Assembly (NCBI GenBank): GCA_903813345.2
Contig: CAIIXF020000003.1
Location: 34,707,000-34,770,999, forward strand
DNA from: Owenia fusiformis
Taxonomy: Eukaryota > Annelida > Polychaeta > Sabellida > Oweniidae
Direction of reading: 5' to 3'
DNA: 64,000 bases
The notes beneath the pieces are model-generated. The model searched no databases and was not told where the DNA came from. It saw only the letters and a list, made by a program, of their open reading frames with translations. A program made the position numbers and the translations under genes. Shown one piece after another: positions 20,798 through 64,000 of the stretch (the stretch's first letter is position 1; each line of letters begins with the position of its first letter).

Positions 20798-20807
20798 GTA
20801 CAATTTA

Positions 20808-21806
20808 CACTCCCCTCCATAAGTTCTACATATACACCCCGCTTCAAAAGTTCTACATATACACTCCCCTCCATAAATTCTACATATGCAGTATACACTC
20901 CCCTCCATAAGTTCTACATATACACTCCTCTCCATAAGTTATACATATACACTCCCCTCCATAAGTTCTTCATATACACTCCCCTCCATAAGTTCTACGT
21001 ATACACGTCCCTCCATAAGTTCTTAATATACACTCCCCTCCATAAGTTCTACATATACACTCCCCTCCATAAGTTCTACATATACACTCCCCTCCATAAG
21101 TTCTACATATACACTCCCCTCCATAAGTTCTACATATACACTCCCCTTCATAAGTTCTACATATACACTCCCCTCCATAAGTTTTACATGTACACTCCCC
21201 TCCATAAGTTCTACATATACACTCCCCTCCATAAATTCTACATATACACTCCCCTCCATAAATTCTACATATACACTCCCCCCCATAAGTTCTACATATA
21301 CACTCCCCTCCATAAGTTTTACATGTACACTCCCCTCCATAAGTTATACATATACACTCCCCTCCATAAGTTCTACATATACACTCCCCTCCATAAGTTC
21401 TACATATACACTCCCCTCCATAAGTTATACATATACACTCGCCTCCATAAGTTCTACATATACACTCCCCTCCATAAGTTCTACATATACACTCCCCCCC
21501 ATAAGTTATACATATACACTCCCCTCCATAAGTTATACATATACACTCGCCTCCATAAGTTCTACATATACACTCCCCTCCATAAGTTCTACATATACAC
21601 TCCCCCCCCATAAGTTATACATATACACTCCCCTCCATAAGTTCTACATATACACTCCCCCCATAAGTTATACATATACACTCCCCTCCATAAGTAATAC
21701 ATATACACTCCCCTCCATAAGTTCTACATATACACTCCCCTCCATAAGTTCTACATATACACTCCCCTCTTCAAGTTCTACATATACACTCCCCTCCATA
21801 AGTTTG
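20808..21806. repeat. 27-bp minisatellite, about 37 units, in ZFTRAF1 intron 2
   Basis: The unit is 'ccataagttctacatata' plus 'cactcccct'. Length 27 is nine codons, so frames stay open for over 200 codons on both strands (TPLHKFYIY on plus, GGECICRTY on minus). These have no start context or conservation signal and the array sits inside an intron. Variants of one or two bases (gttatacat, cccccc, gcct) are scattered through it. Confidence 0.95.
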
Positions 21807-22319: not shown

Positions 22320-23690
22320 ATAAGATTTAATAGACCGTGGGCCTTTAAGAGGAGGTAGTACCCAAAAACCATGTTCCTTAATAGGAGTTGTCCTGTTAGG
22401 GACCATGGTCCTTTAAGAGGAGTTATAAAACATATTATACCATGGTCCTATTAGAGGAGCTAGAACCAGTATAAGACCATGCTCCTTTCATAGGAGTTAT
22501 CCTATTAGACCATGCTACTACAAGAGAGATTTTATCACCTATTAGACCATGGTCCTTTAAGAGGAGTTATAAAACATATTATACCATGGTCCTATTAGAG
22601 AAGCTAGAACCAGTATAAGACCATGCTCCTTTCATAGGAGTTATCCTGTTAGACCATGCTACTACAAGATAGATTGTATCACCTATTAGACCATGGTCCT
22701 ATAAGAGGAGTTATAAAACAAATTATACCATGGTCCTATTAGAGGAGCTAGAACCAGTATAAGACCATGCTCCTTTCATAGGAGTTATCCTGTTAGACCA
22801 TGCTACTACAAGATAGATTGTATCACCTATTAGACCATGGTCCTATAAGAGGAGTTATAAAACATATTATACCATGGTCCTATTAGAGGAGCTAGAACCA
22901 GTATAAGACCATGCTCCTTTCATAGGAGTTATCCTGTTAGACCATGCTACTACAAGATAGATTGTATCACCTATTAGACCATGGTCCTTTAAGAGGAGTT
23001 ATAAAACAAATTATACCATGGTCCTATTAGAGGAGCTAGAACCAGTATAAGACCATGCTCCTTTCATAGGAGTTATCCTATTAGACCATGCTACTACAAG
23101 ATAGATTGTATCACCTATTAGACCATGGTCCTATAAGAGGAGTTATAAAACAAATTATACCATGGTCCTATTAGAGGAGCTAGAACCAGTATAAGACCAT
23201 GCTCCTTTCATAGGAGTTATCCTATTAGACCATGCTACTACAAGAGAGATTGTATCACCTATTAGACCATGGTCCTTTAAGAGGAGTTATAAAACAAATT
23301 ATACCATGGTCCTATTAGAGGAGCTAGAACCAGTATAAGACCATGCTCCTTTCATAGGAGTTATCCTATTAGACCATGCTACTACAAGATAGATTGTATC
23401 ACCTATTAGAACATGGTCCTTTAAGAGGAGTTATAAAACATATTATACCATGGTCCTATTAGAGGAGCTAGAACCAGTATAAGACCATGCTCCTTTCATA
23501 GGAGTTATCCTGTTAGACCATGCTACTACAAGATAGATTGTATCACCTATTAGACCATGGTCCTATAAGAGGAGTTATAAAACAAATTATACCATGGTCC
23601 TATTAGAGGAGCTAGAACCAGTATAAGACCATGCTCCTTTCATAGGAGTTATCCTATTAGACCATGCTACTACAAGAGAGATTGCATCAT
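22320..23690. repeat. ~144-bp tandem array, about 9 units, in ZFTRAF1 intron 2
   Basis: The unit contains 'agaccatggtcctttaag', 'aggagttataaaacatat', 'cctattagaggagctaga' and 'catgctcctttcatagga'. It is itself built from smaller related pieces: 'ccatggtcc' or 'ccatgctcc' with 'taggagtta' recur every 35-50 bp, so it is a higher-order repeat. Adjacent units are nearly identical, which suggests recent homogenisation. Degenerate flanking units occur at 22260-22320 and 23690-23890. Confidence 0.92.
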
Positions 23691-26639: not shown

Positions 26640-29050
26640 GAGAGTGTGGCACATCTGTATATAATTAGAACACTGTCTACAGTAAAACTGTCTTATCTGC
26701 ACATCTCTGTTATAGAAAAAGGTTTTAAATTGAGAGGTTTTAAAGAGGTATTTAGATGTACAGGTTTTACTGCACAATTTGGTTTAAATTGGTGTTCTAG
26801 TAGATTCAAAATGCTTATTATACAGTTCAACTAGTCCCATATATAGTCTACAGTTCAGTTCTTCATGAAAAATAGAACTTCTGAATTTAACATTCATTGT
26901 ACTGATCATGAAATTGAACCATATAACAAAAGTTAACAGAGTCTTATTCTTACTATTTTTGTAGTCTTTAGGCCTTAACCCTTATGCCTGTTCTCTTCCT
27001 CATTTCAAATAAATGTTAGAGTGAAAGAAACCTGAGTTTATAATGGCACGTAGGACTCTACAATGTACATGTTATTGATACTAGCTAGTAAATGGTATAT
27101 TTTACCAGGTAGAACTATCAACTAATTAACAGTATTACTTTTTCAGGAGATATTATTCACTTATTATACAAAAGTTTATATAGGCTAAACACGAATAAGG
27201 CAATTTTTACTGGATTTTTAGTTTTAGAAGTGTAAAATTTACATATATGTGTAATGTCACCTTGGTTATAATCTTGTTTATGTCGTGGCTGTAGTAGGTA
27301 TTTATACAAATATATTACATGTATTTATCAGGGCCAGTTAAATTAAGATTTGAAAATGTATTTGCATTTCATAGTATACTATTGATCACTTTTTCCAAAG
27401 AGTCTTCTATTTTGAATCCGTCATTAATTGAAAACACTGTAAAAATGGTATTATTGGTGAAAAGAAGTGTTAGGGAATTTCAATTACTAAATAAGAATAC
27501 ATTTGGTGATTAGATGTACAAGAATTGGGGTGAAAAGTTGGGCAGACAAAAAAATGAACTGTTAATTGCAGAATTTAGCAGAATATAATATAAAATCATG
27601 GGATTCCTTCAAGAACTCACATCCTGCCATACTTCTAAGGAGCTTCTCATAAGCTCATATTTTGAAGCCTTTTTCAAATACTAAATAATAATAGAAAAAC
27701 AAACACATTAATTAGGTCTACTCATTTTACAGTAATTAATGAATCAGTAAATGTGTTATTTGAACCTGTCTACATAAGGGCATTCAATTAAAAGCCAATT
27801 AAAAGCTGTATCAATTTGATATTTTTTGCTATAATGATAATATTTAATGATGAACAAATGTTGCAAACGTTGCATGATAAATGTGTCATTATGACGATTG
27901 TTCCTTAGATTGTGTGGATGCTTGCTGACTTTCCAATTTCTAAACAATGACAAGTGATTAATTGCTAAATTAGAACGTTAAAATTAAAATAAGCCGTATT
28001 AAATTTCATGTAGGATTATCAGAAGGATTATCATCCCACATCGTGCAATAGTCGAAAAGCAAATACATTTTTCTGTTATCTTTGCAAAAATAGAAACAAG
28101 AAACTTCCCTGCGTACACGGGAAACTTCTAGGTTGGACTACAACTTAGCTATGTCACTTCAAACTTTCAAACTTTCAAGTGGCATTTTTGTACATAATAA
28201 TATACCCACATGTAAAAAATATACTTACTTTGATTACATGGGGAACTGTATACTAGCGCAGAATTATTTGATGTACACAATTAACATGATTTGGAATTCC
28301 CAAGCTCTGAATTTCCTATCTTGTAAGTTCATTTGTTAATTATCGACACACACATAACTATTTTGTTGTATCTTAAAGGATGTATTTCAATTTATGATGA
28401 AAGAATTAAAGGTATAGCCAGACAGAGAGCAAGTTCAACAAAAATTATGTCATTCAGATTCTCTTTATTCGTATTATCCTTTTTCATGGATATTTCCAAA
28501 ACATTTTTGCTTTATTCAAGGAAATACAGAGGAATTGACTTCTTTTTGAGAAACTGATCCGTGAGGATATAATCTCTTGAAGAATATATATACTAAAGCA
28601 CCATTTCAAAATGTTTCATGAGAATCACTTTAAAATATTATTTGGAATGAAAGGGAACACATTTTGATTGCTTGAAATTTTCTCTACTCTCTTTTATGCT
28701 GCCTTTAATTCAACTCAAATGTTCATTTTAATCAAAACAATAATCAAAAGTGAAAATGTAATTAGGCCATCACTATTTCAGTGCATGTAACCAGCAGTTC
28801 AAATAAGTACAGGGTGTTCATAAGCTTCAAGAATTTGATGAACTCCCTGTTTATGTGCAAATACATGTAATTATCTGATTATAGTCTTACAGTTCAGTGG
28901 TGTACATGTAATTGTGTCTAAATATCATAAAATATTCAAGCATTTGGTTTATTTAAAACATTTTGGAAAAACAGACTGCATTTTCACTTGGGAAGTCTTC
29001 ATAAAGAGATTCATTAATGTTAAGTGTTCCATTGACACATTTTACAATAA
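26640..29050. other. No recognisable gene; repeat fragments
   Basis: A pogo-like end 'acagtaaaactgtctta' at 26681 and 'caggttttactgc' at 26760 are remnants of another MITE. The remainder, to the start of the 20-bp minisatellite, is AT-rich with no domain-bearing frame or tandem array. Confidence 0.5.
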
Positions 29051-29054
29051 ATGC

Positions 29055-30165
29055 ATATGTACTTTACAAGAATGTATTTGTACTGTACAAGAATGTAAAT
29101 GTGCTGTACAAGAATGAATATGTACATGTACTGTATAAGAATGTATATGTACTATACAAGAACGTATATGTACTCTACAAGAATACATGTATCTATGTTT
29201 TGTACAAGAATGTATATGTACTGTACAAGAGTGTATATGCCCTGTACAAGAATGTATATGTACTGTACAAGAATATATATGTACTGTACAAGAATGTATA
29301 TGTCCTGTACAATAATGTATATGCACTGTACAAGAATATATATGTACTGTACAAGAATGTATATGTCCTGTACAATAATGTATATGCACTGTACAAGAAT
29401 ATATATGTACTGTACAAGAATGCATATGTCCTATACAAGAATATCTATGTTCTGTACAATAATGTATATATTCTGAACAAGAATGTATATCGACTGTACA
29501 AGAATGTACTTCTACTGTACATGAATGTATATCGACGGTATAAGAATGTATATGTACTGTACAATAATGTATATGTACTGTGCAAGAATGTATATGCACT
29601 GTACAAGAATGTATATGTGCTGTACAAAAATGTATATGTTCTGTACAATAATGTATATGCACTGTAAAAGAATATATATTGTACTGTACAAAAATGTACA
29701 AGTATATGTTCAGTACAAGAATGTTTATGTTCTGTACAAGAATGCATATCATCTGTACAAGAAAGTATGTTATGTACAATAATGTACATCTTCTGTACAA
29801 GAATGCATATCATCTGTACAAGAAAGTATGTTATGTACAATAATGTACATCTTCTGTACAAGAATGCATATCATCTGTACAAGAAAGTATGTTATGTACA
29901 ATAATGTACATCTTCTGTACAAGAATGCATATCATCTGTACAAGAATGAATGTTATGTACAATAATGTACATCTTCTGTACAAGAATGCATATCATCTGT
30001 ACAAGAATGTATGTTATGTACAATAATGTATATCTTCTGTACAAGAATGCATATCATCTGTACAAGAATGTATGTTATGTACAATAATGTATATCTTCTG
30101 TACAAGAATGCATATGTACAATAATGTATGTTATGTACAATAATGTATATGTTCTGTACAAGTAC
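29055..30165. repeat. 20-21 bp minisatellite, over 50 units, with 60-bp higher-order part
   Basis: The basic unit is 'tgtacaagaatgtatatg' plus two or three bases. From about 29785 to 30110 it becomes a regular 60-bp unit ('atgcatatcatctgtaca', 'agaaagtatgttatgtac', 'aataatgtacatcttc'). Because most units are 21 bp, frames run open on both strands for 80-250 codons (repeats of LYKNVYV and similar). TGTACA palindromes recur about every 20 bases. Confidence 0.93.
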
Positions 30166-32845: not shown

Positions 32846-35812
32846 CAGGGTGGGCCAAAAAAAAAAAAAATAGTACCATGGGTACTAGGCTCACATGGTG
32901 ACAGAAAAAAACGGATATAATTTTTTGCTGATTTTTTGTGACAAAATTATTTCAAGCCATCTGTCTCTCAGTCAGTTAAAATGGCTGAAAAAAACGGATA
33001 TAATATTTTGCCAATAATTTGTAACAAAATTATTTCATACAACTACTCTTTACAGTGACATGGCTTTTTGCAATGCAAGACACCTGAAATTATTTGTAAA
33101 GCTAGGAAATGGGCCAAAATTGAATTTCGCGAGACAAAAATGGCGACCATTTTGAAATCAGGCAAGCTTTTGAACCAGGAGTCATAAGGGAGTTTTTTGT
33201 ATTGATGTTGAACAAAAATAACTTGAAACTGGAATCCTATCGACAGAGGTTTTGAGCAAATGGTCCAAAAGAGGATTTCGCGAGACAGATGGACAAATCA
33301 ATGTTAACTAAAATGGCTGAAAATAAAAAAACGGATATAATATTTTGCTGATTTTTTGTAACAAAATTATTTCATACAACTACCTTTAACAGTGACGTGG
33401 CTTTTTACAATGCAGGACAGCTGAAATTAAAGCTAAAATGTAAAGCTAGGAAATGGGCAAAAAGTGAATTTCGCGAAACAAGAATGGCAACCATTTTGAA
33501 AATAGGCGAGCTTTTGAACCAAGAGTCATAGGAGAGTTTTTTGTATTGATGTTGAACAAAATTAACTTAAAATGGGAATCCTATCTACAGAGGGTTTAAG
33601 GTAAATGGTACAAAAGTGGATTTGCGAGACAGATGGACAAATCAATGTTAACTAAAATGGCTGAAAATAAATAAATGGATATAATTTTTCGCTGATTTTT
33701 CGTAACAAAATTATTTCATACATCTACTCTTTACATTGACATGGATTTTTACAATGTAGGACACTTGAAATTATTTGTAAAGCTAGGAAATGGGTCAAAA
33801 GTGAATTTCGCGAGACAAAAATGGTGGCCATATTGAAAATAGGCGAGCTTTTGAACCAGGAGTCATAGGGGAGTTTTCTGAATTGATGTTGAACAGAAAT
33901 AACTTAGAACAGGAATCCTATCGACAGAGGTTTTAAAACGTGCCACAGAAAGTGGATTTCGCGAGTCAGATAGACAAATCAATGTTAACTAAAGAGGCTG
34001 AAAATAAAAAAAATTGATACAATTTTTCGCTGATTTTTTGTAACAAAATTATTTCATATATCTACCCTTTACATTGACATGGATTTTTACAATGTAGGAC
34101 ACCTGAAATTATTTGTAAAGCTAGGAAATGGGTCAAAAGTGAATTTCGCGAGACAAAAGTGACGGCCATTTTGAAAATAGCCGAGCTTTTGAACCAAGAG
34201 TCATAGGAGAGTTTTTTGTATTGATGTTGAACAAATATAACTTAAAATGGGAATCCTATCGACAGAGGGTTTAAGGTAAATGGTCCAAAAGTGAATTTTG
34301 CGAGACAGATGGACAAATCAATGTTAACTAAAATGGCTGAAAATAAATAAATGGATATAATTTTTCGCTGATTTTTCGTAACAAAATTATTTCATACATC
34401 TACTCTTTACTTTGCAATGGATTTCTACAATGTAGGACACTTGAAATTATTTGTAAAGCTAGGAAATGGGTCAAAAGTGAATTTCGCGAGACAAAAATGG
34501 CGGCCATTTTGAAAATAGGCGAGCTTTTGAACCAGGAGTCATAGGGGAGTTTTCTGAATTCATGTTGAACAGAAATAACTTAAAACAGGAATCCTATCGA
34601 CAGAGGTTTTAAAACGTGCCACTGTTATTGACAGAAAGTGGATTTCGCGAGTCAGATAGACAAATCAATGTTAACTAAAATGGCTGAAAATAAAAAAATG
34701 GATACAATTTTTCGCTGATTTTTTGTAACAAAATTATTTCATATATCTAATCTTTACATTGACATGGATTTTTACAATGTAGGACACCTGAAATTATTTG
34801 TAAAGCTAGGAAATGGGCCAAAAGTGAATTTCGCGAGACAAAAGTGACGGCCATTTTAAAAATAGGCCAGCTTTTGAACCAGGAGTCATAGGGAGGTTTT
34901 CTGTATTGATGTTGAACAGAAATAACTTAAAACAGGAATCCTATCGACAGAGGTTAGCTAGGAAATGGGCTAAAAGTGAATTTCGCGAGACAAAAGTGAC
35001 GGCCATTTTGAAAATAGGCGAGCTTTTGAACCAGGAGTCATAGGGGGGTTTTCTGTATTGATGTTGAACAGAAATAACTTAAAACAGGAATCCTATCGAC
35101 AGAGGTTTTAAAACGTGCCACTATTGTTGACGGACAGACGGACGAACAGACGGACGGACGGACAGACAGACGACAAGTGAGTGATTGCAAAAGCTCACCA
35201 TGTGAGCTAATAATAACAATACCCAAGTTTAAAGATGAATGATTCATATGATATATGTTATACCATACCATGTATCATATATCAGTTTACAGATAACTCA
35301 TTTCCTAACAAAATGACACCATCCAATTGGAAAACCATTGGTTTCTCGTGGAGTAAGAGACTAAAATTGACACCAGGGGTGCCGTGAGCGACCAAAAATC
35401 AAAAAATATTGCAGTCACAGCTGCACTTAATATGCTTGACTGAATCATCACAAATGTATTTAAAAGTAATACACAATTGATAATCAATTAAAAATATATA
35501 AGTATTATTGCCGAATTTTGCACTATACTTGAATAAATGTACCTCTTTTGAAGGTGTCAAAGTTCAAATTTCCCTCCATTTTCCGCAATTTGGAAATCTG
35601 CAGTCAATATTTTTTTGGTCGCTTTTGACACCCCTGGTGTCAATTTTAGCCTCTAGCTAAACAAGAAAACAACAGTTTTTCAATCAGATGGTGTCATATT
35701 GTTAGGAAATGATTTATCTTTAAGATGATATACAATACTTGACATGGTTTAACATTATATCATATGATATTCATTCTTAAACTTGGGTATTGGTTTTTTT
35801 TGGCCCACCCTG
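32846..35812. mobile_element. Composite element with mariner-type ends and ~340-bp internal tandem units
   Basis: The left end CAGGGTGGGCCAAAAAAA and right end TTTTTTTGGCCCACCCTG are inverted copies, each flanked by TA (32844-32845, 35813-35814). The interior from about 32900 to 35120 is 6-7 tandem units near 340 bp ('aatgttaactaaaatggc' at about 33300, 33644, 33982, 34317 and 34668), each with an ATGGCGGCCATTTT-type site. It is followed by a CGGACGGACGG run and an inverted repeat (35215-35420 against about 35590-35800, sharing 'aatacccaagttta' and 'gacaccaggggtg'). No transposase is seen. Confidence 0.82.
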
Positions 35813-52262: not shown

Positions 52263-52860
52263 GAATATGTCCAGTAAAGAAAATGTTATCTGTCCTGTAC
52301 AAGATAAGATCAAATCAAGATTATTTCTACTCACATCTAGTCTATGAAATCATTTTGCTTATCTTGATATATGTGATGACTAATTACTGACGTGATTATA
52401 CTAAAATGAAAAATGAAATGAAAAACAATAGAAGTCTCCAAAAGTTTATTAGTGCTATGAAATATTTACTTTCATATGTTTTCTTACTTTACTGCCATAC
52501 ACTATGTTTGAGGTCATTGCAACATCTTATGTTCGTAATAGTTATTCAGATCTATGTTTTTATCAGTTTTTGTATGTTTTTCTGTATCAAGTTACAGGTG
52601 AGGCTGTATTATAAGGCATTTGGACAAATGGGGGATTTATGAGGGTAAGGGGGGGGGGGCTATGGAAGGAAGGAAGGAAGGGAGAGAGTTGGGGGAGTGA
52701 GATAGAGGGGGCAGGTTCAATAGTGGTAGAAACATCATAATTCTTTTTTTGATACAGTACCAAAAATATATTATTAGGTAGAGTGTAATTTGCTTCGAAT
52801 TATAAACTGAATTTATGTAATTTCTTGGGAGATTATTGATCAAACCAAATGTTTCTTTGA

Positions 52861-54334
52861 TCAAAAATACCTGAATCATCATTGTTTCTATATAACTCTA
52901 TGACTTATGAATCAAAATACCTGAATCATCATTGTTTCTATATAACTCTATGACTTATTAATCAAGAATACCTGAATCATCATTGTTTCTATATAACTAT
53001 ATGACTTATTAATCAAGAATACCTGAATCATCATTGTTTCTATATAACTCCATGACTTATTAATCAAAAATACCTGAATCATCATTGTTTCTATATAACT
53101 CTATGACTTATTAATCAAAAATACCTGAATCATCATTGTTTCTATATAACTATATGACTTATTTATCAAAAATACCTGAATCATCATTGTTTCTATATAA
53201 CTCTATGACTTATTAATCAAAAATACCTGAATCATCATTGTTTCTATATAACTCTATGACTTATTAATCAAAAATACCTGAATCATCATTGTTTCTATAT
53301 AACTCTATGACTTATTAATCAAGAATACCTGAATCATCATTGTTTCTATATAACTCTATGACTTATTAATCAAAAATACCTGAATCATCATTGTTTCTAT
53401 ATAACTCTATGACTTATTAATCAAAAATACCTGAATCATCATTGTTTCTAGATAACTCTATGACTTATTAATCAAAAATACCTGAATCATCATTGTTTCT
53501 ATATAACTCTATGACTTATTAATCAAAAATACCTGAATCATCATTGTTTCTATATAACTATATGACTTATTAATCAAAAATACCTGAATCATCATTGTTT
53601 CTATATAACTCTATGACTTATTAATCAAAAATACCTGAATCATCATTGTTTCTATATAACTATATGACTTATTAATCAAAGTACCTGAATCATCATTGTT
53701 TCTATATAACTCTATGACTTATTAATCAAAGTACCTGAATCATCATTGTTTCTATATAACTCTATGACTTATTAATAAAAAATACCTGAATCATCATTGT
53801 TTCTATATAACTCTATGACTTATTAATCAAAAATACCTGAATCATCATTGTTTCTATATAACTCTATGACTTATTAATCAAAAATACCTGAATCATCATT
53901 GTTTCTATATAACTCTATGACTTATTAATCAAAAATACCTGAATCATCATTGTTTCTATATAACTCTATGACTTATTAATCAAAAATACCTGAATCATCA
54001 TTGTTTCTATATAACTATATGACTTATTAATCAAAAATACCTGAATCATCATTGTTTCTATATAACTCTATGACTTATTAATCAAAAATACCTGAATCAT
54101 CATTGTTTCTATATAACTATATGACTTATTAATCAAAAATACCTGAATCATCATTGTTTCTATATAACTCTATGACTTATTAATCAAAAATACCTGAATC
54201 ATCATTGTTTCTATATAACTCTATGACTTATTAATCAAAAATACCTGAATCATCATTGTTTCTATATAACTCTATGACTTATTAATCAAGAATACCTGAA
54301 TCATCATTGTTTCTATATAACTATATGACTTATT
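52861..54334. repeat. 51-bp minisatellite, about 28 units, in Piezo intron 1
   Basis: The unit is 'tacctgaatcatcattg', 'tttctatataactctatg' and 'acttattaatcaaaaa'. Units differ almost only by ctc/cta in 'aactctatg' and by aaaaa/aagaa before TACCTG. The near-identity over 1.47 kb points to recent expansion. No long frame crosses it because each unit carries stops in several frames. Confidence 0.96.
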
Positions 54335-58561: not shown

Positions 58562-58657
58562 CATGTGTATTCCGGATCAACCTCCTATCATTAGTGTATG
58601 GCCTTCTGCTACTGGTGGCCCCTCTCATACAAAGCCCATCAAGGTCAACAATGCAAG
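58562..58657 (+). CDS. Piezo coding exon 2
   Basis: Acceptor TTGTTTTCCAG. Encodes ACVFRINLLSLVYGLLLLVA then PLIQSPSRSTMQ, matching PIEZO2 ACAFRYNGLSFVYLIYLLLI and EPTKTTMQG. It forms the second membrane helix. Enters in phase 1, leaves in phase 1 (G of GGC), donor GTAAAC. Confidence 0.92.
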
Positions 58658-58794
58658 GTAAACAATTTCAAAGGATGCAGTTTTTTATGTCACCACCAAA
58701 AAGTGGTTGGCAGTTGGTGGTTATAACTTCCAATAACTTAACAATTACTTAATTACTTAATTAAAATGACTTAAATTTTCTTCAAAATCATCTT

Positions 58795-59420
58795 CAATTT
58801 TCTGAAGTTCAAATCTGACTTTAGATTTAAGATTTGACCTTCAATGACCTTCTCAAGGTCAAAAAAGGTAAAAAATGTATTTTTCAACTTGCTCAAAATT
58901 TACCAATCTTTTTTTCAAAATTACCTACAAGTTCTCAGAAGTTCAATTCTTACTTTAGATTTGAGATTTCACCTTCAATGACCTTTTCAGGGTCAAAAAG
59001 GTATTTTTCAACTTGCGTCAAATTGACCATTTTTTTCAAAATCATCTACAAGTTCTCAAAAGTTCAAACCTGACTATATATATATGAGATTTGACCTTCG
59101 TCAACCTTCTCAAGGTCAAAAAGGTCTTTTTCAACTTGTTTCGAAAAACCTTTTTTTAAATCATCAACAAGTTCAAATCTGATCATAGATTTAAGATTTG
59201 AAGTTCAAAGGTCAAACAAGGATAAAAGCCTTATATTTTTAACTTGCTTCAATTTTTTTCAAAATCATCTTCAATTTCTGACAATTTCAAATCTGACTTT
59301 AGATTTAAGATTTGACCTTCAATGACCTTCTAAAGGTCAAACACGGCTAAAAAGGTCATAAAGGTATTTTCTCAACTTGTTTCAAATTGATCAATTTTTA
59401 AAAAAAATCATACAAGTTCT
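58795..59420. repeat. ~110-120 bp tandem repeat, about 5 units, in Piezo intron 2
   Basis: Repeated blocks: 'tttagatttaagatttgac', 'cttcaatgaccttctcaagg', 'tcaaaaaggtatttttcaac' and 'caagttctcagaagttc'. Units have diverged by indels, so this is older than the neighbouring arrays. Confidence 0.85.
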
Positions 59421-59514
59421 CATAATTCTAAAAGTTGAGGTTCATTTTTAGTTTCCCTTCAGACAGAAAATAGGGGCATCAGGATTCCACTTCCCTATTA
59501 TTATCAGCCAGCAT

Positions 59515-59586
59515 ATTTAGTATTTCCCTTTCAAAGTATGTTTACAGATTTATATATACATACTTTGAAAGGGAAAATACTAAATG
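59515..59586. repeat. Perfect-stem hairpin, ~28-bp stem
   Basis: 'atttagtatttccctttc' with 'aaagtatgt' on the left pairs with 'acatactttgaaaggga' and 'aaatactaaat' on the right. The loop is about 14 bases (ttacagatttatat). One or two mismatches. It lies in Piezo intron 2 on the sense strand. Confidence 0.8.
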
Positions 59587-59637
59587 TACAAGCTAAGACA
59601 GACAGTGCAATGGTTTGTCTAACATGAATATGTTATT

Positions 59638-59860
59638 ATCCCATCGAACGAAGTTCGGAGGGATATAGGGAATGCCTCCGTCCGTCCATCCGTCTGTCCG
59701 TCCGTCTGTCCGGGCAATAACTCAAATACCGTTGGCCCGATTTTGTTCATGTTTTGTACACATATACCCAATGGGGGTAGAAGTTCTGCTCGAAAACCGA
59801 TTCAAAAAAATTTCTGAAAGCAAATGTAATGTTCAAAGTAATGAATTTCCATTTCAACTT
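59638..59860 (+). repeat. Left end of TATCCC(A/T)TCGAACGAAG family
   Basis: It begins 'ttatcccatcgaacgaag', then a CCGTCCGTCC run, 'aataactcaaataccgtt' and 'cccgattttgttcat'. It is the plus-strand counterpart of the end at 8460-8600. Truncated on the right. Confidence 0.72.
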
Positions 59861-61039
59861 TAACAAAATAGTAATATCTACCTAATGGCAAGTGTTAATA
59901 TTTCCAGGACTTTCAAAATTGAAGTCAAATAGGAGATAAAAATGGCACAAGAAAATGTTCACATTGAGAGGTGTTCAGATTAGAGAGGTGTTCACATTGA
60001 GAGGTGTTGTTCAGATTAGAGAGGTGTTCACATTGAGAGGTGTTCAGATTAGATATGTGTTATAATTTATAAGTTTTACTGTAAATACACCTGAAGTATC
60101 TTTAAGTGTCCTAGCAATCTCAAGGGTTTCATTGTACCTAAAATACCTGTACCTGTAAAATGTACCTAAAAAGTTTTCAAATCAAATCAAATTCTGGTGG
60201 CCATTTTGGAAGTTTTTAGATAAATCTTAAGAGAATTATATCAAATACATGTTATATGGTAAGAAGTTCAAGAGCTGATAAACTCTTTAGTGGATTTTGC
60301 TTTCTTGGTTAATAAGTCCACACTGCTGTGCTTTAGGTACGATAATGTTCACTCTGTGCCTTGTTAAACTGAGTATTTCAAAATATTGATGAATTAAAAA
60401 AAGAATTTCACAAAATTCTGTAGATATTCTTAGAAAACTAAAGATTTTCTCCCAAAACCTACTTAGTTTCCCTCCCAGTGAGATCATATCCTAGGAGACT
60501 TTGATCATGTGTTTATTGCAATTAAGTGGCCCTTGGTAATGTTGTTCATTTTTCCAGGGTTATCAATCCACTTAATTAATACATGTGTAAAAAACTGTAA
60601 AGTAGGTGTAGATTGATTTTACACGTTTGGTATCTTTGTAAGTGGTTTTTAATGTTCATTAATCTTCATGGAAAGATGAGAGAGGAAGTCAGAAACATTG
60701 TGCACAACCATTGGGATTTAACACTTTCGGGAGTTATTGCTTACTTATAAAAAATAAATCTGCGAAAAGAACAGAGACACATGCAAGATTACCAAGATTA
60801 CTCGTATTATAAAGGATAATCTGAAGTGAAGAGGTCATTAAATGTTAGACTATGATTTCCAATGGTGTTATTTTGCTGTTGATTATAATAATATTTCTTG
60901 AAGTTCTATTAAATCATACAATGCATTTTCATTTTTTGGCAAAATATCAAAATCATGGTAAAATGACAAGTCAAGAGATGGCAAGAAAGAGTCCTGTATG
61001 ATATATTTTACATTATAATACTTCCCCAATATATACAAT

Positions 61040-62330
61040 ATATATAAGTTTGTGATGTATTCCAGGCTCTACCAAACACTACCTGATTGTGGTCCTATAT
61101 TATACATTTGGGTAATACTTCCCCAATATATATAAGTTTGTGATATATTCCAGGCTCTACCAAACACTACCTGATTGTGGTCCTATATTATACATTTGGG
61201 TAATACTTCCCCAATATATATAAGTTTGTGATATATTCCAGGCTCTACCAAACACTACCTGATTGTGGTCCTATATTATACATTTGGGTAATACTTCCCC
61301 AATATATAAGTTTGTGATATATTCCAGGCTCTACAAAACATTACCTGATTGTGGTCCTATATTATACATTTGGGTAATACTTCCCCAATATATATAAGTT
61401 TGTGATATATTCCAGGCTCTACCAAACACTACCTGATTGTGGTCCTATATTATACATTTGGGTAATACTTCCCCAATATATAAGTTTGTGATATATTCCA
61501 GGCTCTACCAAACACTACCTGATTGTGGTCCTATATTATACATTTGGGTAATACTTCCCCAATATATATAAGTTTGTGATATATTCCAGGCTCTACCAAA
61601 CACTACCTGATTGTGGTCCTATATTATACATTTGGGTAATACTTCCCCAATATATATAAGTTTGTGATATATTCCAGGCTCTACCAAACACTACCTGATT
61701 GTGGTCCTATATTATACATTTGGGTAATACTTCCCCAATATATATAAGTTTGTGATATATTCCAGGCTCTACCAAACACTACCTGATTGTTGTCCTATGT
61801 TATACATTTGGGTAATACTTCCCCAATATATACAATATATATATAAGGTTGTGATATATTCCAGGCTCTACCAAACACTACCTGATTGTTGTCCTATGTT
61901 ATACATTTGGGTAATACTTCCCCAATATATACAATATATATATAAGTTTGTGATATATTCCAGGCTCTACCAAACACTACCTGATTGTTGTCCTATGTTA
62001 TACATTAGGGTAATACTTCCCCAATATATACAATATATATATAAGTTTGTGATATATTCCAGGCTCTACCAAACACTACCTGATTGTGGTCCTATATTAT
62101 ACATTTGGGTAATACTTCCCCAATATATATAAGTTTGTGATATATTCCAGGCTCTACCAAACACTACCTGATTGTGGTCCTATATTATACATTTGGGTAA
62201 TACTTCCCCAATATATATAAGTTTGTGATATATTCCAGGCTCTACCAAACACTACCTGATTATGGTCCTATATTATACATTTGGGTAATACTTCCCCAAT
62301 ATATACAATATATATAAGTTTGTGATATAT
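61040..62330 (+). repeat. 88-99 bp array containing 14 copies of the Piezo exon 3 acceptor
   Basis: Each unit runs 'aagtttgtgatatattcc', AG, then 'gctctaccaaacactac', 'ctgattgtggtcct', then 'atattatacatttgggtaa' and 'tacttccccaatatata'. Copies of the CCAG junction are at 61062, 61150, 61238, 61324, 61412, 61498, 61586, 61674, 61762, 61861, 61960, 62059, 62147 and 62235; the real acceptor is at 62332. The first ~31 bases after AG match exon 3 except for one base (tac for tat). The difference in length (86, 88 or 99) comes from an extra 'acaatatata'. Frames through the array are incidental. Confidence 0.95.
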
Positions 62331-62335
62331 TCCAG

Positions 62336-62458
62336 GCTCTACCAAACACTATCTGATTGTGGTCCTGAGCTTCAGTGTCATTGCAGTTGTGGCTCAAATA
62401 TGTTTCCAAATCTACTTGGGTGCAGGGATGTCTCCTTATGGATCAGAGTTCACAAACT
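62336..62458 (+). CDS. Piezo coding exon 3
   Basis: Acceptor GATATATTCCAG, the last of 15 such junctions. Encodes STKHYLIVVLSFSVIAVVAQ, ICFQIYLGAG and SPYGSEFTN: the third membrane helix and the start of an extracellular loop. Enters phase 1, leaves phase 1, donor GTAAGT. The 41-residue contribution matches the vertebrate spacing between STMQG and NCS. Confidence 0.92.
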
Positions 62459-62920: not shown

Positions 62921-63090
62921 TGTCAGTATTCATTCTTGGACTTAATACTTAATAAGGTTGGTATTAGTCTTTTGGTTGAAGAAGGTTTTAATGATACATT
63001 TATAGAAGTATGTGTTGACCATTCATTCATGACATTACCATGAATGAAATTTTGTACAAAATTAACTCATTCAAGTCCTTTCTCTTTTAG

Positions 63091-63568
63091 GTTCTACAAA
63101 GGAACAAATCGCAAGAGAAGTTGGGTTCCAGCGTTACGACACAGCATCTCTTGTCAATATATTCCGCCTGGTTACACCTGATGTTGGCATGCTGATTATT
63201 TCCGCCATTGTATTTGGCATCTCTAAGGGGCTCCTCCCACAACAAGAGAGCCAATCAGAACTCCCAACAATAAGCCGTCAACCCTCAACGAGCAGAAGCC
63301 ACACCATCCTTGGTTACCTGGGAGAATTTTTAATGGTGCTTTTCCTGGCAGCATCTGGGATCGCACTGCCATCTATTCTTAATGGAATTTATTTTTTAAC
63401 ATTCCTTGGTATAGCCACCTGGTGGTCATTTTATAGATCACTAGGACGTGTGTTTGCATACCTGCGCTGTATTCTTCTGGTGTATACTGGACTGCATATG
63501 ACAGTGCTCTATCTCTCACAGTTCCAGACATTCCAACAGAAGGTTCCATATGAAAACCTGTTTGCAAG
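63091..63568 (+). CDS. Piezo coding exon 4
   Basis: Acceptor CTTTCTCTTTTAG. Begins CSTKEQIAREVGFQRYDTAS, then LVTPDVGMLIISAIVFGIS, a polar serine-rich cytoplasmic stretch (QQESQSELPTISRQPSTSRS), then GYLGEFLMVLFLAASGIALP, SILNGIYFLTFLGIATWWSF and LYLSQFQTFQQKVPYENLFA. PIEZO2 has VPDIGMFI, MMLPSLTSSVYFFVFLGLCT and LYLYQFQFFQEAVPP in the same order. The cytoplasmic linker is about 70 residues shorter than in human PIEZO2. Ends in phase 2 at GCAAG with donor GTATAA. The frame happens to stay open for 127 bases of intron. Confidence 0.93.
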
Positions 63569-63936
63569 GTATAATACTGAATATATTGTTTGTAACAGTA
63601 CTTTGTCCATGCTGTCACCCATGATTGGTATTTTACCACATTTTTACAAATCAGTTAAACAAGGAATGATTTCTGGGAGAGCAATGGTGAGCTGAGATCC
63701 AGAAAGGTTTTTTATCAACAACAATTCCGCCATCTTTTTGACAATTATGTAATTTGAGAAATTTCATTAGCAGGAGCAAGTCCTTTATTTGAAGAATCAA
63801 CACTTTTGATAAAGATATGATTGATCAAAATCAAAGCTCTCAGATATTAAAGAGTGACAAATGGGTGATAACTATAACTACCTCAATTATAAATTGCCTT
63901 AAAGATATTTTGAACTCATTTTCATCTTGTTTTCAG

Positions 63937-64000
63937 AATATTTGGAGTAAGTCCTATAATACAGACAAATTGCGACAGGCCTTGGGAGATAAACTTCCAT
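63937..64000 (+). CDS. Piezo coding exon 5, partial at the window edge
   Basis: Acceptor CTTGTTTTCAG. Joined to exon 4 it reads FAR then IFGVSPIIQTNCDRPWEINF, against vertebrate ARLFGIKSVIQTDCSSTWKI. Confirms the phase-2 junction. The exon is cut by the right edge; the remaining ~90% of the channel lies beyond. Confidence 0.9.

Follow-up and report, generated by a model that had tools for sequence, protein, structure and literature searches.

Arrays in which a tandem repeat has captured the edge of an exon are known from lancelets, where they were named mirages. In amphioxus, the intron-exon boundaries of Adh3, of the globins BflGb6 and BflGb9, of troponin C and of PGBD5 are affected by minisatellite-like tandem duplication (PMC3087553, PMC3902484). 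As far as the available portions of these papers go, RT-PCR of Adh3 and the globins suggests that the arrays do not interfere with splicing (PMC3087553), and the PGBD5 report adds its own case to Adh and troponin C as further ones without aberrant mRNAs (PMC3902484). A human counterpart is the VNTR in intron 18 of ABCA7, which has a 25-bp unit and begins with the GT of the exon 18 donor; in the part of that study available to us, retention of one unit is put at ~2%, independent of VNTR length, and in-frame skipping of exon 19 (44 aa) is found to correlate with VNTR length (PMC5954066). A study of C. elegans, likewise seen in part, also links a minisatellite with alternative splicing (PMC4039745).

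The array described here lies in a Piezo gene. The window, i.e. the whole stretch of 64,000 nucleotides that was analysed (C3:34707000-34770999), belongs to a genome of which 498 Mb in 525 contigs were searched, and it contains the 5' part of the gene near its right end. The features are as follows.

58562..58657, plus strand: Piezo exon 2, 96 nt, ending in phase 1, donor AAG/GTAAAC; it reads ...CVFRINLLSLVYGLLLLVAPLIQSPSRSTMQ(G) and is aligned to PIEZO
58658..62335, plus strand: Piezo intron 2, 3678 nt, of which the array forms the last 1.3 kb
61003..62366, plus strand: tandem array of 15 units, each an intron stretch, an acceptor and the first 31 nt of exon 3, spaced 86-99 bp (TRF and unit alignment)
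61066..61096, plus strand: decoy 1, 31-nt exon copy in the first unit, whose left part is the most diverged
61154..61184, plus strand: decoy 2, junction match
61242..61272, plus strand: decoy 3, junction match
61328..61358, plus strand: decoy 4, junction match
61416..61446, plus strand: decoy 5, junction match
61502..61532, plus strand: decoy 6, junction match
61590..61620, plus strand: decoy 7, junction match
61678..61708, plus strand: decoy 8, junction match
61766..61796, plus strand: decoy 9, junction match
61865..61895, plus strand: decoy 10, junction match
61964..61994, plus strand: decoy 11, junction match
62063..62093, plus strand: decoy 12, junction match
62151..62181, plus strand: decoy 13, junction match
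62239..62269, plus strand: decoy 14, closest to the real junction, 97 nt upstream of it
62336..62458, plus strand: Piezo exon 3, the real one, 123 nt or 41 codons, donor ACT/GTAAGT
63091..63568, plus strand: Piezo exon 4, 478 nt, donor AAG/GTATAA, set by the reading frame into exon 5
63937..64000, plus strand: first part of Piezo exon 5, which extends to 64096, past the window end

The junction TTCCAG/GCTCTAC occurs 15 times in the window, at 14 decoy acceptors and at the real one at 62336, with spacings, in order, of 88, 88, 86, 88, 86, 88, 88, 88, 99, 99, 99, 88, 88 and 97. An independent TRF call places the repeat at 61036-62366 (period 88, 14.7 copies, 93% matches). An earlier note on this DNA had reported 14 decoy 3' splice sites in units of 88-99 bp; the count agrees with both the junctions and TRF, while the spacing has to be widened to 86-99 bp. 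The common unit of 88 bases consists, by unit alignment, of ~57 bases from the end of the intron and 31 from the start of exon 3, which together with the junction count upholds the note's description of an exon edge captured into a minisatellite. The copies are faithful: eight of the 14 decoys match the real site at every one of the 30 intron bases that precede the junction, 12 of the 14 match it at 26 or more of them, and the first 16 exon bases are those of real exon 3 in all decoys except one. The inner units (2-14) differ at seven columns and in length variants, with the three adjoining 99-bp units sharing variants in a non-random internal order, and units 1 and 15 carry private differences. 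The real unit alone has the T in ACTATCTG, a synonymous difference. The left part of the first unit reads ATATTTTACATT, followed by a gap in which three bases of TTTGGG are missing and by ATAATAC, versus ATATTATACATTTGGGTAATAC in the others; this unit carries ATTATAATA, without a donor, the alternative form being TTTGGGTAATA. The distinct left part suggests that the first unit marks the border of the founding duplication, which moves the left edge of the array to ~61003.

These observations comprise three features of a mirage: tandem units that span an intron-exon boundary with its AG signal (15 units), an authentic boundary that is the exon-side end unit (62336) with the duplicates in the intron, and inner units that are homogenised while the edge units have diverged. 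Mirages are further described as varying in copy number among haplotypes or cells, and as leaving regular mRNA splicing intact. When a 101-base stretch of the array was compared with the genome, in a search that skips very common words, it found 15 matches, all at the Piezo exon 3 array; a dispersed repeat or mobile element was ruled out, the unit being matched at this place alone.

Matches to Pfam and PDB, together with a rough general splice matrix, served to infer the exon boundaries, with part of the Piezo exons placed; the remainder of the gene was read as 14 genomic stretches up to the contig end. The open frame that holds exon 4 (63066-63692) matches Pfam Piezo_TM1-24 with E 7.9e-37. 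An end of exon 4 at 63687 was ruled out because it puts a stop in exon 5, and the donor at 63569 was used. Intron 3 is 632 nt long, and exons 2, 3, 4 and 5 form a single open frame. The translation of exons 2-4 matches 11 distinct PIEZO chain sequences in the PDB at E <= 0.001 (best 3.2e-28, whole query), and the first aligned stretch of the best chain (query 2-128, own E 2.2e-13) spans the exon 2/3 and 3/4 junctions. Since the joined reading aligns to PIEZO across both junctions, the 15th acceptor (62336) is supported as the coding one. Skipping of exon 3, a loss of 41 codons, would keep the frame, which stays open through exon 5.

Use of any decoy is predicted to truncate the protein. Beyond the part encoded by exon 2, a join to any of the 14 would read TMQGSTKHYLI(V/M)VL(Y/C)YT(F/L)G and stop after 16 codons at a TAA in frame, much as the note had it when it described ~31 bases of exon 3 leading on to an in-frame stop. 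Each decoy is preceded by AG and has a GT 46 nt downstream, which makes it a candidate 46-nt cryptic exon, as had also been proposed; the candidate donor, TTTGG/GTAATA in every unit according to the note, has that form in 13 units and is TTAGG/GTAATA in the remaining one. When the last one to six units are read as cryptic exons, all six predicted products contain a premature stop. The array thus holds, 14 times over, the sequence make-up of a poison exon, i.e. a candidate exon with two sites that brings in a premature stop.

What would distinguish the 15th acceptor from its copies is not apparent in the strength of the site. In a rough consensus matrix, the real exon 3 acceptor scores 4.3, as do 12 of the 14 decoys, the other two scoring 4.7 and 3.0. 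The candidate decoy donor scores 2.9 (4.3 in one unit) versus 2.8 for the exon 4 donor at 63569; the idea that decoy donors are too weak was ruled out on this similarity, and since they are no weaker than a donor of the gene itself, donor weakness cannot exclude the 46-nt cryptic exon. RNA structure that hides the decoys was also rejected as an explanation: a segment of 299 nt (last decoy unit, real unit and exon 3) folds no better than its shuffles (z 0.35; 127 of 200 shuffles did equally well or better). Among the 24 acceptors that were placed, that of exon 3 is the fourth lowest by the rough matrix. The decoy junctions are near-identical to the real one, so that, if splicing is faithful, the deciding information lies outside that stretch, and the array amounts to a natural experiment in choosing among near-identical splice sites.

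The same gene offers a second case outside the window, in a region (L017) that spans C3:34879130-34880851.

C3:34879533-34879680: Piezo exon bracketed by two arrays, reading ...LLIPFLLELRALMDWMWTDTTLALTSWLQMEDIYANIFVLKCNRTAEQ

Upstream of this exon, six 68-bp units provide five decoy acceptors and the real one, and joins to all five decoys end in a stop. Four of the decoys score 3.0-3.2 and the fifth 0.4 by the rough matrix, compared with 0.7 for the real acceptor; because four of five outscore the real site, strength is disfavoured as the deciding factor. A real acceptor stronger than its copies was accordingly ruled out, the scores being equal at exon 3 and mostly higher for the decoys here. 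Both arrayed acceptors are among the lowest four of the 24 (chance 0.022, a post hoc figure in a set whose other acceptors were partly chosen by score), and that weak acceptors are better at tolerating arrays is a lead only. Downstream, a 54-bp unit is repeated 21.7 times from the GT of the real donor onward and presents 21 decoy donors of the form GCA/GTAAGC or GCA/GTAACT, which score 5.8 or 2.4 versus 13.0 for the real donor (rough matrix). The first 12 of the 21 are in frame with the real one, and the open frame of the exon reaches the 11th, ending at 173285 in joined coordinates; any of the first 11 would add in-frame repeats of 18 residues. The three splice-edge arrays of this Piezo gene have unrelated units, and in each of them the true site belongs to the unit that adjoins the exon. 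As with the VNTR of ABCA7, arrays here include splice sites of the adjoining exons, namely the acceptor of exon 3 and both the acceptor and the donor of the exon at C3:34879533-34879680.

How arrays come to sit on splice sites can be judged against the repeat content of the region. Minisatellites (period at least 15, span at least 100 bp) make up 26.6% of the 146 kb between 58000 and the end of the contig, and TRF arrays of at least 300 bp (period at least 15) cover 22% of the 204 kb that begin with the window and reach the same end. Many long minisatellites with differing units are also seen within the window, e.g. at 885-1679, 20806-21804, 22401-23689, 29050-30162, 32988-34992 and 52860-54334. 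The GC content is 33% and that of amphioxus about 41%, so the host is probably not a lancelet; a search of the assembly for COX1 gave no match. Exon edges fall in arrays less often, not more often, than they would if arrays were placed at random: three of 46 edges (24 acceptors, 22 donors) lie in arrays versus 12.3 expected by array rotation, and three or fewer were found in 0.99% of 20,857 rotations. Restriction to arrays of at least 300 bp gives three edges versus 11.4 expected (1.5%). The full set includes six edges of exons Ec, Eg, Eh and Et, which were recognised by eye from their likeness to Piezo sequence; they come from a list with repeat-covered frames removed, which favours edges outside arrays, and without these six, i.e. 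for exons matched by family or homology, the figures are three of 40 versus 10.7 expected (2.3%). This rarity fits frequent birth of arrays and selective removal of most of those that touch splice sites. Within the inner units, variable columns number four of 31 in the exonic part versus three of 57 in the intronic part (Fisher p 0.24); the exon copies vary no less readily than the intronic stretch, so that nothing argues for selection on the decoys. A core of 20 bases in the inner units shows zero changes, an outcome that chance gives in 16%.

The Piezo stretch is also more repeat-dense than 40 loci around myosin-head and ion-channel exons (22 of 92 and 18 of 138 matches, respectively, some loci overlapping), where array cover is 6.3% versus 26.6%. 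No TRF array overlapped the matched stretch or came within 20 nt of it in these 40 loci; the survey is a weak one, in which exon edges were worked out for one locus alone and many ion-channel loci may be single-exon. In that locus (L027:1-2147, C9:5802775-5805999) a myosin exon sits between two minisatellites, one of which stops ~76 nt before the apparent acceptor and the other begins 23 nt after the apparent donor, the nearest approach in the survey. A subtelomeric origin is a candidate explanation for the repeat density of the Piezo region: the end of C3 is ~7.6 kb past the first and 0.8 kb past the last of three matches to Piezo terminal exons, but the last stretch of C3 showed no TTAGGG/CCCTAA run, and arrays are common upstream of the gene too.

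Taken together, we consider it likely that the array is a splice-junction minisatellite, or mirage, whose 15th acceptor is used in most transcripts and which is tolerated as a by-product rather than selected as a regulator. A segment of ~90 bases that joins the end of intron 2 to the opening 31 bases of exon 3, as read from the unit alignment, would have been tandemly duplicated, and the units would then have been expanded and homogenised like other minisatellites of this repeat-dense region. With the duplicates on the intron side, the true acceptor is therefore the exon-side unit, and it alone continues directly into the remainder of exon 3. Exon definition may suffice to keep it the choice of the cell in most transcripts. 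In human data and minigenes, an exon whose flanking introns exceed ~250 nt is recognised as one unit, with the sites closest across the exon favoured, and the portion of that work available to us describes upstream preference among competing acceptors under strict exon definition as significantly reduced, not as reversed (PMC9225289). Introns 2 and 3 (3678 and 632 nt) are both within this range (PMC9225289, in the same portion), and the distance to the exon 3 donor is 123 nt for the real acceptor versus 220-1393 nt for the decoys. As upstream preference is reduced rather than reversed in that work (again in the portion available), some leakage to decoys may occur; any use would probably be minor, centred on the one or two closest units, and lead to truncated products. 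That the true site is nearest its exon may be the very reason such arrays survive. With three of 46 edges in arrays versus ~12 expected in a minisatellite-rich region, the Piezo arrays are read as tolerated survivors of minisatellite growth.

The contrary view, in which the length of the array tunes Piezo like a dial, is unlikely. Decoys would vie with the real acceptor for the splicing machinery of the 3' site and for the donor of exon 2, and longer alleles would yield more transcripts with premature stops or, likelier, more in-frame skipping of exon 3 with a loss of 41 residues. The early stop predicted for all 14 decoys, the open reading left through exon 5 when the 123 nt of exon 3 are removed, and an exon 3 acceptor that is weak by the rough matrix and equalled by its decoys all agree with such a dial, for which the skipping of ABCA7 exon 19 that rises with VNTR length provides a precedent in the part of the report available (PMC5954066). 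Against it, the decoys are without sign of constraint, analogous amphioxus arrays are thought, in the accessible parts of the reports, not to alter splicing (PMC3087553, PMC3902484), and the presence of two more arrays in this gene is easier to explain by general minisatellite activity than by a dedicated switch. The suggestion of the earlier note that the array could tune or limit Piezo expression is for these reasons, and given the minisatellite-rich surroundings, unsupported as stated, and a regulatory reading is less likely than tolerance. Because VNTR length in ABCA7 affects skipping of the next exon, at least in the part of that study available, tuning may yet occur in a form other than the one proposed, namely exon skipping. 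The boldest combination, in which one Piezo gene, probably outside lancelets, carries three unrelated splice-edge arrays, the copy number at exon 3 sets the rate of in-frame skipping and individuals with different alleles vary in the amount of Piezo lacking 41 residues near the N-terminus, is a long shot and quite improbable.

Two further readings carry still less weight with us. It is very improbable that the array provides starting material for the gain of introns or the birth of exons, by which a decoy with its TTTGG/GTAATA donor would become a small exon. An acceptor with a GT 46 nt downstream is available in every decoy and such a model has been proposed for amphioxus mirages, as stated in the portion of that paper available (PMC3087553), but the last one to six units taken as exons all lead to premature stops, and 46 nt is not a multiple of three. 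An excess of copies from mis-assembled reads appears extremely improbable. Tandem arrays are error-prone, the locus is present in a single copy in the assembly, and the BflGb6 array seemed aberrantly assembled in the amphioxus draft genome, to go by the accessible part of its description (PMC3087553); however, the contigs encountered are 32-62 Mb long, the order of units is non-random, with an adjacent 99-bp trio that has common variants and distinct first and last units, and the existence of the array is independent of the exact copy number.

The position of the true site in all three arrays, nearest the exon, suggests a simple survival rule in long-intron genes, which predicts that splice-edge arrays are rare where introns are short. 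If array length changes the inclusion of exon 3 instead, a mechanosensory channel would be under the control of a dial that mutates fast.

The far end of the gene holds an observation of its own. Three intact, alternative-looking Piezo terminal exons lie outside the window at C3:34903117-34903362, 34908820-34909062 and 34909962-34910198 (L020), each with an acceptor-like site and a stop and encoding the last 83-88 residues (Piezo cap family model positions 217-298); pairwise they are identical at 43, 45 and 57 of 83 positions, and they could yield channels with three different C-terminal ends. Elsewhere in the genome, C9:37986009-37994334 contains twelve matches to one myosin-head stretch (model positions about 18-84) in 8.3 kb, an arrangement that resembles a large set of alternative exons belonging to a myosin gene.

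The Piezo exon 3 array belongs to a known kind, that of the amphioxus mirages and the ABCA7 VNTR. No splice-edge array in Piezo or outside chordates was recognised among the papers listed from an open-licence library, as judged by titles and the openings of abstracts, and the host of the Piezo arrays is probably outside the lancelets. Like that of BflGb6, the array takes in the 3' end of an intron and the 5' part of the next exon, and it shares with the amphioxus mirages its many units with AG/GT signals, of which the inner ones are homogenised and the edge ones excluded from this process; the 14 decoys spaced 86-99 bp compare with six or three units of 150-160 bp in two haplotypes of BflGb6 (PMC3087553, in the portion available). 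The Piezo gene here carries three such arrays. The downstream array of the second arrayed exon resembles the VNTR of ABCA7 in that the first unit starts with the GT of the true donor, and both ABCA7 exon 19 (44 aa) and Piezo exon 3 (41 codons) are in frame when skipped; whereas ABCA7, in the part of the report available, repeats a donor and has a measured effect on splicing, the Piezo exon 3 array repeats an acceptor with 31 exon bases (PMC5954066). With work on competing splice sites the array has in common the question of how a choice is made among several near-equal sites, posed there, in the portion available, with alternative sites in human data and designed minigenes (PMC9225289) and here with a natural set of 15. 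What makes the Piezo locus stand out within its kind is a higher number of copies than in the amphioxus globin examples, as far as the available accounts describe these, the presence of three arrays in one gene and a host that is probably not a lancelet.
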